Source of the DNA: Pseudomonadota bacterium
GTDB lineage: Bacteria > Desulfobacterota > Desulfovibrionia > Desulfovibrionales > Desulfovibrionaceae
Direction: 5' to 3'
Assembly: GCA_018822105.1 (NCBI GenBank)
Contig: JAHJLB010000011.1
Span: forward strand, 186,001-250,000
Length of the DNA stretch: 64,000 bases
Below the pieces are notes generated by a model. That model saw only the letters and a list, made by a program, of their open reading frames with translations, made no database searches and had not been told where the DNA came from. This document shows, piece after piece, positions 3,995 to 64,000 of the stretch. A program made the translations under genes and the position numbers. Positions within the stretch are counted from its first letter, which is position 1. The number at the start of each line of letters is the position of its first letter.

Positions 3995-4876
3995 CTACTC
4001 CAGGTTCTGCACCTGTTCGCGGCATTTCTCCAGTTCCACCTTGAAGTCCACGGTCAGGCGGCTCACCTCGACGTCCTGCGCCTTGGTGCCGCAGGTGTTG
4101 ATCTCGCGGAAGGCCTCCTGGATGAGAAAGTCCAGGCGCTTGCCCGCCTCGCCCTTGGCGGCCACAGCCTCGTCCAGGCGGTCCAGGTGCGCGGCGAGCC
4201 GGGTGATCTCCTCGCTCACGTCCAGGCGGTCGGCCAGCACGGCGACCTCCTGGGCCAGGCGCTCCTCGGTGAAGGTCATGCCCGCCTGGGCCACCAGGGT
4301 GGTCAGGCGCTCTGCCGTGGCCGCCTGCTTGTCCTTCAGCACCACGGGCACACGCTCGCCCACGGCGGAAGCCAGTTCCCGCAGCCGGGCAAAGCGGGCC
4401 CTGAGATCGCGGGCCAGCTCCTCACCCTCCACCCGGCGCGAATTGTTCCAGTCGTCCAGCGCCTTCTGGAGCCCCTGCCCCAGGCTCGCGGCCAGGCCCG
4501 GGTCCGGCTCGGCGGAATCGTCGCGCCAGAGATGCGAGGCGGACAACAGGCGGTTCATGTCCGGCACGAACTCCACGCCCTGGGCCTTGGCCAGGTCGCG
4601 CAGCTGGTCGAGCATGGCCCCGGCCTGGGCGGCGTTCAGGCTGACGCCCAAGAGCGCCGCCGAGCGGGTCTCCACGCTCAAGGACACGTCCACGCGGCCG
4701 CGCGCGGCGTTCTTGCGCAGGATCTTCTCAAAGCGCGTCTCCAGGCTGCGCAGCACGGAGGGCATGCGCCATTTCATGTCCAGGAACCGATTGTTGACGC
4801 TGCGGATTTCCCAGACGTGGCTGAAGTCTTCGCTGATGGTCTCAAACCGGCCAAAACCGGTCATGCTTACGGGCAT
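3995..4876 (-). CDS. YicC/YloC-family endoribonuclease
   Basis: The 293 residues start with the family signature MTGFGR and end with a segment close to [11 protein letters not shown], both typical of YicC/YloC proteins. E. coli YicC acts in RNA turnover and has been described as an endoribonuclease; the exact substrate in this organism is unknown. The central part is helical and rich in Arg, Glu and Leu, as in the family. The start overlaps the end of the DUF4416 gene by 10 bases, so it belongs to the same transcript. Confidence 0.9.
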
Positions 4877-60044: not shown

Positions 60045-61043
60045 ATGAACCAAAAAACCAACACCTCCGCCGATGTCATGCAGACCGGCATCCTGTTGGA
60101 TACCGGCACCAACGAGCTGGAAATTTTGGAATTCCACATCGACAGCGACGCCGGCCCAGGAGGTCCGGGCGAGCGCCACTCCTTTGGCGTCAATGTGGCC
60201 AAGGTGATGGAGGTCATCGAGAGCCCGGGCCTGGAGGCGCAACCCGGCGCCGCGCACCCCAGCTACCGGGGGATCATCCCCCTGCGCAGCCACATCCTGC
60301 CTGTCATCGACCTCGCGGTCTGGCTGGGCATCCCCAAATCCCCGGCCCCCCTCGACAACGTCATCGTCACCGAGTTCAGCAAGGCGGTCACCGGGTTCGT
60401 GGTTTCAGGCGTCACGGGGATCCACCGCGTGGGCTGGCCGGAGGTCATCCCCCCGGACGGCTACCTGCCCAAGACCGGAATCCAGGCCATCATCGGACTG
60501 GTGGAGCGGGACGGCCACTTCATCCAGCTCCTGGACCTGGAGACCATCATCGCCGACCTCACCCCAGCGGACGACTTCGAATCAACGGCCTCGACCTTCG
60601 TTGCGCCCCAGGAACTCAAAGCCCTGGTGGCGGACGACTCCGCCACCATCCGGCTCATGCTCAAGAAAAGCCTCACCCGCGCCAACATTACGCCCACCAT
60701 CGTCAACAACGGCATGGAGGCCCTGGAGGCCGCGCGCGGCCTGGCGCGCCAGGCCCTTGCGGAGGGCAGGCCGATCCAGGAATACCTGAACGTCATCATC
60801 TCAGACATCGAGATGCCCCTCATGGACGGCTTCACCCTGACCAAGAACATAAAAAGCGACGCCGTGCTGCGCGAGATACCAGTGGTGCTGTACTCCTCGA
60901 TCATCACCGCCGAACTGCGCCACAAGGGCCAATCCGTGGGCGCGGACCGCCAGATCAGCAAGCCCGACCTGGAACACATCCCGGAAACCGCCGTGCAACT
61001 GGTGCTGGAATACGAACAGAAGCGGGTGCCGCGCGATGGCTGA
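60045..61043 (+). CDS. cheV: chemotaxis coupling protein CheV
   Basis: 332 residues. A CheW-like domain (about 12-175) begins TGILLDTGTNELEILEF, a CheV signature. A receiver domain (about 190-320) follows, with Asp197/Asp198, phospho-acceptor Asp254 in SDIEMPLMDG, Ser284 and Lys307. It would couple chemoreceptors to CheA and tune the response by phosphorylation. The stop overlaps the HPt gene by 8 bases. Confidence 0.95.
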   Translation: MNQKTNTSADVMQTGILLDTGTNELEILEFHIDSDAGPGGPGERHSFGVNVAKVMEVIESPGLEAQPGAAHPSYRGIIPLRSHILPVIDLAVWLGIPKSPAPLDNVIVTEFSKAVTGFVVSGVTGIHRVGWPEVIPPDGYLPKTGIQAIIGLVERDGHFIQLLDLETIIADLTPADDFESTASTFVAPQELKALVADDSATIRLMLKKSLTRANITPTIVNNGMEALEAARGLARQALAEGRPIQEYLNVIISDIEMPLMDGFTLTKNIKSDAVLREIPVVLYSSIITAELRHKGQSVGADRQISKPDLEHIPETAVQLVLEYEQKRVPRDG

Positions 61044-62858: not shown

Positions 62859-63146
62859 CTACGCGCTTTTCTGCTCCTGCTTGGGAGTCTCGGCCTGGGC
62901 CTGGGCGGCCTGAGGCGGGTCCTGGGCTGCCTGGGCTGCCTGGGCCTGCGTGGGCTGGGCCTGCGTGGGCTGCTGGGCGGGCGGAGCAATAGTGATTTCA
63001 TCCTGAGCGCTCAGGGCGCCCTTGAACTCACGGATGCTTTTGCCGAGGTTGGCCGCGATCTGCGGCAGTTTGCCCGGGCCGAACAACAGCAGGGCAATGA
63101 CAAGGATCAGAAGCAGGTGCATGGGCTGAAGCAATTCGCCAAGCAT
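62859..63146 (-). CDS. tatA: Sec-independent translocase protein TatA
   Basis: A 95-residue pore component of twin-arginine export. A short membrane helix (about residues 9-23, LLLILVIALLLF) leads to the hinge FGPGKLPQIAANLGKSIREFK and an amphipathic helix. A Gln/Ala/Pro-rich tail follows, partly built from short tandem repeats. The ATG at 63146 is preceded by TTGGAGG. A GATAAT (63184-63179, minus strand) could be its -10 box. tatC is not in the window. Confidence 0.93.
   Translation of the reverse strand: MLGELLQPMHLLLILVIALLLFGPGKLPQIAANLGKSIREFKGALSAQDEITIAPPAQQPTQAQPTQAQAAQAAQDPPQAAQAQAETPKQEQKSA
62941..62970 (-). repeat. 15-bp tandem duplication in the tatA tail
   Basis: The 15-base unit at 62941-62955 recurs exactly at 62956-62970 and, on the minus strand, encodes the duplicated Ala-Gln-Pro-Thr-Gln unit of the TatA tail. 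A 9-base unit (CCTGGGCTG) is also repeated just beside it. Confidence 0.8.
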
Positions 63147-63184
63147 GATGGCCTCCAAGGGTTTGGCTGAGATCAATCATTATC

Positions 63185-63600
63185 CTACCTGGCGGGGTTT
63201 GAAAAGCCCCCGCAGGCCATGGGCGTGCGGAAATTCCGCAGTATGTCCAGGCCGTCATCTCCCTGCGCCGCATGCCCCCTGCGGAAGGCCTGCGCCTTCC
63301 ATGCGCCTCGGCTCACGATTGCTCATTCCATCAAGAATGTTGGCCTTGCCGGACGGATGTCAAGGCCGCTTGCGAAGCACTGGCCTGCCTGGCCCCGCTG
63401 ACAGGATTGGAAACCAACGCCGACACGCATGGAACACGGCTTCATGGGTGACAGGAATTGCCAGGCCCCAGGGCCGGGGCTGGAGCATGCGGACGAAACG
63501 GCGCGGACTACTGGCAGGCCGCATGTGTTGGCGCAACGCCTCCCGCGACTGCGCCAATCAGACGCCGGCAAGGCCGGAAGCTCTCACGCAATTTTGGTTG
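63185..63600. other. gene-free stretch, possibly decayed
   Basis: No ORF here has a ribosome site or recognisable family; several short overlapping frames run through without pattern. Near 63195 a short GC-rich hairpin (GCGGGG with CCCCGC) lies just upstream of tatA. Composition is still GC-rich until about 63580. Confidence 0.5.
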
Positions 63601-63601
63601 T

Positions 63602-63639
63602 TTGACAATATTGTCAATTCGCCGGCTAGCTGCTATATA
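63602..63639 (+). promoter_or_regulatory. canonical promoter with a perfect 16-bp palindrome over the -35 box
   Basis: TTGACAAT at 63602-63609 and its exact inverse ATTGTCAA at 63610-63617 form a perfect palindrome. Its right half contains TTGTCA (63611-63616), followed after exactly 17 bases by TATATA (63634-63639). It looks like a repressible promoter pointing right, into the AT-rich edge. AGGGGAAG follows at about 63643. Confidence 0.6.
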
Positions 63640-64000
63640 CAGAGGGGAAGAGTTTCAAATATGGTCCGGCAAGTCTAAACATCTCCAAATTGATCCTAAC
63701 AGGCTGGGCACCAATCTTATGTCAACATGCTTAATTTAAAGTTAAAATTATTCACGAATCTTAATTTTACAACAATTTTACATTATCGAGACAATGCGGA
63801 TGCAATCAGCGTTGCGGCCAAGCCATTGCCAGCACATCACATTTCAAACAAACAGGTTACTTTCAGTATTACATGTAGTTAGATTCACAACAAGCCATTG
63901 GTGAGAATTGTGTGGTTGTGAAAAATGTTTTCTATTCTACATAAACGTCATCGCATGTGACGACTGGGCTTCTGGCTTGTGATGCTTTGACCATAATTTC
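63640..64000. other. AT-rich right edge, no convincing gene
   Basis: The base composition changes abruptly near 63580. The only frame of note is a 51-codon ORF (63727-63882) with no ribosome site or recognised family. A 5-codon frame (ATG at 63661) follows the promoter at 63602. The rest holds nothing I can name; it may be the 5' flank of a gene beyond the window. Confidence 0.5.

Follow-up and report, generated by a model that had tools for sequence, protein, structure and literature searches.

The palindrome (TTGACAATATTGTCAA) lies in an AT-rich intergenic region near the right-hand end of the window, the 64-kb stretch of DNA that was analysed, which is G000:C24:186001-250000 in the source genome (Table 1). 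This region separates a tatA-like gene from amtB (amtB1 below), which encodes an ammonium transporter and starts, together with the PII gene glnK that follows it, ~480 bp beyond the palindrome. An RND-type efflux pump is encoded on the minus strand beyond the PII gene. The right-hand genes were read on an 18-kb stretch (L002) that extends past the window end, where position 4081 corresponds to 64081 on the window scale. A reading of the sequence alone (the sequence-only reading) had proposed that extension to the right should lead to a phage, plasmid or toxin-antitoxin regulator; the amtB-PII operon was found instead. Its remark that the palindrome adjoins AT-rich DNA holds, as GC content falls to 0.385 there (400-bp windows), compared to mostly 0.6-0.7 in the surrounding DNA. 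At the other end of the window, an AT-rich reading frame of 154 amino acids (1-466), open at the window start and beside GC-rich DNA, looks foreign.

Table 1. Features of the intergenic region upstream of amtB and of its flanking genes (window positions; L002 positions where given).
Feature	Position	Strand	Remarks
tatA-like gene	62862..63176 (L002 2862-3176)	-	Pfam TatA_B_E
AT-rich intergenic region, part within the window, tatA-like gene to amtB	63177..64000		
Site A, perfect 16-bp palindrome TTGACAATATTGTCAA	63602..63617		~-480 from amtB start; found by alignment of block A of the relatives, de novo motif and relatives-only profile
Sigma-70-like pair, TTGTCA - 17 bp - TATATA	63611..63639	+	Not conserved in 11 relatives
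Weaker copy overlapping site B, TAATTTTACAACAATTTTAC	63762..63781	+	16.1 bits, relatives-only matrix
Site B, CAATTTTACATTATCGAGAC	63773..63792	+	~-308 from amtB start; 21.2 bits, best in the window, relatives-only matrix; conserved cluster
Site C, CTATTCTACATAAACGTCAT	63932..63951	+	~-149 from amtB start; 19.2 bits, relatives-only matrix; conserved cluster
Sigma-54-type promoter, TGGCCCACTTCTTGCC	64017-64032 (L002 4017-4032), just outside the window		-24/-12 element (GG and GC ~10 bp apart)
amtB, ammonium transporter	L002 4081-5655 (start 64081, outside the window)	+ side	Pfam Ammonium_transp and NCBIfam TIGR00836 above cut-off
PII gene (glnK)	L002 5674-6012		After amtB; Pfam P-II

The palindrome is perfect and 16 bp long, as had been claimed, but the promoter said to enclose it is less convincing. 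The 17-bp spacing to TATATA (63634-63639) is true for TTGTCA (63611-63616), in the right half of the palindrome, whereas TTGACA (63602) sits 26 bp from it. Because the spacing holds for TTGTCA alone, the two hexamers match the consensus at only 5/6 and 4/6 positions, and the -10 hexamer is without its final T, so that 'canonical' was an overstatement. The pair was also absent from a consensus promoter scan, which requires T at the last -10 position. We judged it to be fortuitous or species-specific.

Perfect palindromes of at least 16 bp are not rare in this DNA. The window contains five, compared to a mean of 2.75 and a maximum of 6 in 40 shuffles, although for the intergenic stretch from 63177 to 64000 alone only 10 of 500 shuffles produced one. 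Two of GC-rich composition (16 and 18 bp) overlap at 60727-60755, within a long reading frame (60045-61043). At up to three mismatches the window holds no further copy of the palindrome, near the promoter-like pair or elsewhere, although the sequence-only reading had suggested a search for more; the copies that do recur are degenerate and lie ~150-177 bp apart. The whole 3.17-Mb genome contains no second copy at up to two mismatches. When the exact dyad pattern TTNACAWWWWTGTNAA was searched for in the same genome, it returned the site itself and one place with one mismatch; the reversed pattern, used as a control, gave no fewer; the exact pattern is too strict. In another genome (G008), locus L004 matches the palindrome with two mismatches; it is away from amtB1, which lies on a different contig. 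The source genome alone among the 15 genus members carries the dyad in perfect form, which looks like a chance improvement of one dyad. The significance of the site lies in its conservation and not in its being palindromic.

A promoter of sigma-54 type lies between the palindrome and amtB. Its element, TGGCCC-N5-TTGCC, could be aligned in 12/12 genus members with a few changes, the largest in L036 and L045, and is present in a 13th genome (G002). Blocks of conservation upstream are visible in the same alignment. The DNA upstream of this element was compared across the genus by a de novo search for motifs in either strand, from which the sigma-54 element was excluded. The set comprised the source genome and 11 further genus members (n = 12), with 485 bp upstream of amtB from each. 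Of the 15 members, it was without G011 (contig ending 29 bp before amtB, L039), G001 (no close PII of the amtB1 operon) and G002 (recognised after the motif search). L047, L048 and L049 belong to other genera and were likewise outside the search; L047 and L049 were scanned singly afterwards.

The search found one motif, about AATTTTACAATTTTGTAAT, with a core resembling ACA-N4-TGT. At a width of 18 it gave 36 sites, which fell near -475 in 12/12 genomes, near -305 in 11/12 and near -147 in 12/12, with one stray. The total motif score was 582, compared to 372-412 in 10 shuffled sets (15 restarts for the shuffled sets, 30 for the real one). The three clusters, A, B and C, were less complete at width 16 (12, 8 and 9 of 12 genomes) and contained 12, 10 and 12 sites at width 20; since the genomes are related, these counts are not independent. 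When each genome was left out in turn, 34 of the 36 top-three hits fell inside three intervals that cover 17% of positions. In the same test, the score of site A in the source genome was matched by 2/200 shuffles, and those of other A sites by more (65/200 in L044, 15/200 in L045 and 6/200 in L036). The 13th genome, G002, was outside the training set, and has an A site (TTGACAATATTATCAT) two bases off the palindrome, with further sites ~172 and ~332 bp past it and then amtB. Overall, 13 genus members have a motif site at the position of the palindrome, usually with copies near -305 and -147.

The dyad-like sites upstream of the sigma-54 promoter thus form three positional clusters, in which most of the relatives' A sites are weakly dyad-like. 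Where all three sites were found, A and B are 157-177 bp apart and B and C 147-167 bp; site C is ~85 bp from the sigma-54 promoter in the source genome. By a matrix built from 31 sites of the relatives, site B scored highest of all places in the window, site A came second and site C fifth. Ranked between them were site A in the opposite orientation and a hit at 21-40 (19.4 bits), which lies in the AT-rich reading frame and was taken as chance. Even with a matrix from the B and C sites of the relatives only, site A scored 15.2 bits and was the fifth-best place in the window.

The motif recurs elsewhere in the source genome. We scanned its 3.17 Mb with a profile built on 29 sites, all from relatives, and scored 150 of 156 first-look candidates. 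Two matches were returned at E<10, at C10:17336 (E 1.65) and C27:206308 (E 6.34). The first precedes a second amtB gene, amtB2 (Pfam Ammonium_transp), that adjoins a PII gene, and the second precedes a glutamine synthetase gene of type III (GSIII_N). Both are individually weak and not significant alone; their weight rests on where they fell. The amtB1 sites themselves were not returned at E<10; in a 36.5-kb scan with filters off, they reached 8.8 (B), 8.2 (A) and 6.5 bits (C). Because these sites were missed and 150 of the 156 candidates were scored, we regard the profile as weak and the scan as not exhaustive. A further site, of 12.9 bits, lies ~100 bp before the start of the source genome's glnA.

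Across the genus, the profile gave 15 matches at E<=3 in 11 of the 15 genomes, and none at this threshold in the other four. Eight were upstream of amtB1 (six of them training sites, the two of G002 not) and three upstream of amtB2. Single matches lay before a type III-like glutamine synthetase, a glutamate synthase gene and an ABC-type binding protein (Peripla_BP_6), and one was without a nitrogen gene nearby (L217, G007:C57:6018-6032). The neighbours of L217 look, by eye, like uvrC and a transposase. Upstream of the second amtB, the site is 378-390 bp before the assigned start in 9/12 loci; the start is misplaced in L087, L090 and L095. The sigma-54 promoters of the second amtB were read by eye. 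In L085, this gene has, besides the site at ~-388, one ~93 bp before its start and past the sigma-54-like element (8.3 bits), and the site at ~-90 is stronger in five relatives (L088, L089, L091, L093 and L096).

A wider scan covered 35 amtB upstream regions, namely 33 of 80 loci (five from genus members) together with L047 and L049. In 13 of the 30 non-genus regions, the best site was reached by no more than 5% of 200 shuffles (1.5 regions expected; uncorrected), which hints that the motif may be used beyond the genus. Many amtB loci labelled Geobacter or Nitrospirae were without such a site by the same test (200 shuffles each).

Which protein might bind these sites? The source genome encodes 21 strong sigma-54 activator domains and two weaker matches. 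One candidate, on C47, matched GAF and Sigma54_activat above cut-off and HTH_8 (Fis-type) below cut-off, with a GAFTGA loop in its translation; the domain search matched no receiver domain. Its gene is the last of an operon that also encodes a TPR protein (TPR_21), IorA (IOR_alpha above cut-off) and IorB, a POR-family protein for which IOR_beta was the best match yet below cut-off. The GAF activator is present in 15/15 genus members. In all 15 genomes its operon is preceded by the element TTGACATTTTTG, a pattern picked after being seen. The element before the source genome's ior operon fits the amtB profile only moderately well, with 7.0 bits (E 0.67, 36.5 kb searched) in one scoring and 9.2 bits in another. 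At G000:C2:32567-39723, another activator, which shares 41% identity with the GAF protein, is encoded at a distance of ~5 kb from a tandem pair of PII-like genes. This arrangement, which we take to resemble a nif region, suggests nitrogen fixation.

The operon on C47 looks like DVU1952-1949 of D. vulgaris, and on its neighbourhood and domains the candidate is the apparent counterpart of DVU1949. PMC4641369 (Kazakov et al. 2015) describes DVU1949 as a single-component activator; its gene shares a transcript with a hypothetical-protein gene and, in four genomes, with iorA and iorB. The paper proposes autoregulation and a regulon of nine operons, which include DVU1231-1233 and the activator's own, under the heading 'nitrogen metabolism and transport'. 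DVU1231-1234 encode an ammonium transporter, PII and a uridylyltransferase, according to the part of PMC3333781 (Rajeev et al. 2011) available. The system described here and the DVU1949 regulon of D. vulgaris Hildenborough have in common predicted control of amt and, more tentatively here, of the activator's own iorA/iorB operon, a single-component sigma-54 activator and the GAFTGA loop (PMC4641369). In contrast to that regulon, the present one is in a different genus and has three remote sites that span ~330 bp and of which the most distal is perfectly palindromic. The likeness is drawn from gene order and domains and not from the published motif logo. As in a DVU1949-type regulon, the motif stands before other genes of nitrogen assimilation (amtB2, type III glutamine synthetase, glnA and glutamate synthase).

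Enteric enhancers of the NtrC/glnAp2 type also consist of dyad sites upstream of the sigma-54 promoter of a nitrogen-assimilation gene, and the arrangement before amtB is alike in this respect. However, the enteric NtrC dyad contains GC, whereas the dyad here is the AT-rich ACA-N4-TGT, and the probable activator here has a GAF domain and no matched receiver domain.

The genomes themselves show where the sites are and that they are conserved, as well as the promoter of sigma-54 type and the recurrence of the motif at other nitrogen genes. On this basis we consider it likely that the palindrome is the distal of three upstream activating sites in a sigma-54 nitrogen enhancer array of amtB-glnK. 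That the GAF protein in particular is the activator of this array is somewhat probable, and a claim we make with less assurance. Judging by what is established for this class of promoter, dyads A, B and C, which resemble ACA-N4-TGT, would each be occupied by a dimer of an NtrC/NifA-class sigma-54 activator, probably the GAF-AAA-Fis protein. The AT-rich DNA between the sites and the promoter would then loop, and the activator would drive ATP-dependent opening by sigma-54 polymerase at TGGCCC-N5-TTGCC before amtB. The signal would presumably be nitrogen shortage, leading to ammonium uptake. Enhancers of this kind can act from up to 15 kb (PMC4641369, in the text available), and activation from a distance is better supported at this site than repression at an overlapping promoter.

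The same array, in keeping with the enhancer reading, may instead be bound by an NtrC-type response regulator matching DVU3220, a possibility that we regard as real but doubtful. In vitro (EMSA), DVU3220 binds ahead of the amt-PII operon, upstream of DVU1231, and it is conserved in Desulfovibrio generally (PMC3333781); several of the 21 activators of the source genome begin, by eye, with an apparent receiver domain. The places of the motif are, however, broader than the single target listed for DVU3220, the amt operon; the motif also precedes the genes for type III glutamine synthetase and glutamate synthase, as well as glnA and the operon of the GAF activator. The list for DVU1949, in contrast, has nine entries, among them amt and the activator's own operon, and the same text, as far as available, gives no motif for DVU3220 (PMC4641369). 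Some of the operons on the DVU1949 list presumably encode glutamine or glutamate synthases.

More speculatively, and with little confidence, the near-fixed spacing of the three sites may make the array a graded long-range enhancer that sets the sharpness of the ammonium-uptake response, in which the distal perfect dyad, overlapping the sigma-70-like pair, may have a second role.

It is improbable that a repressor operator overlaps a species-specific sigma-70 promoter here and that this promoter yields a small RNA or an additional transcript of amtB. The TTGTCA-17 bp-TATATA pair scores 9/12 and is overlapped by the palindrome, whose perfect form is, as noted above, confined to the source genome. 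With the right half of the palindrome as the -35 hexamer, however, none of the 11 relatives reaches 9/12 though the site is conserved, and the -10 hexamer is the one rejected by the consensus scan. With the left half as the -35 hexamer, 3/11 relatives (L037, L038 and L046) reach 9/12, compared to 8 in the source genome, so that a promoter-like reading is conceivable in some of them, but the -10 hexamers of the relatives then share no more than 4/6 positions with TATAAT. A search of 1.2 kb against Rfam returned nothing at E values of up to 1, so that a structured RNA was rejected; this also counts against the small-RNA version. Also against the promoter reading, the longest plus-strand open reading frame listed as starting between the palindrome and amtB encodes 51 amino acids.

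We think it very unlikely that the site is instead a structural or nucleoid-protein element (bent AT-rich DNA bound by IHF or an H-NS-like protein) that aids sigma-54 looping. The region is AT-rich, and the orp operons of D. vulgaris require IHF (PMC3897727, from the part available), but the motif is specific, dyad-like and recurrent before other nitrogen genes, and its sites at glnA and the type III glutamine synthetase are, by eye, outside any long AT-rich region.

The phage or mobile-element repressor operator that the sequence-only reading had seen here, or one of a plasmid or toxin-antitoxin system, is suggested by a perfect palindrome close to a promoter-like pair but is scarcely credible, because the next genes are amtB, PII, the RND pump and the tatA-like gene, with no repressor, integrase or toxin-antitoxin gene among these neighbours, and 13 genus members have the site at this position. 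What survives of that reading is its regulatory part: from the sequence, a protein-binding site before an operon is very probable. The downstream DNA is ordinary host DNA, which is half of what the sequence-only reading had named as speaking against it, yet an operon lies there whose control very probably involves the site.

The palindrome is thus most likely a matter of fairly ordinary gene regulation, by an enhancer of a type already known. A text search, with figures and supplements outside its scope, found no paper that joins the Desulfovibrio ammonium transporter, sigma54, glutamine synthetase and an upstream activating sequence. The apparent sigma-70 promoter was misleading, and it is conservation, not palindromicity, that carries the signal. 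For a host group of little-studied sulfate reducers, an anonymous palindrome becomes a testable nitrogen-control element, to which a motif, several target genes, a promoter of sigma-54 type and a likely activator can be assigned.
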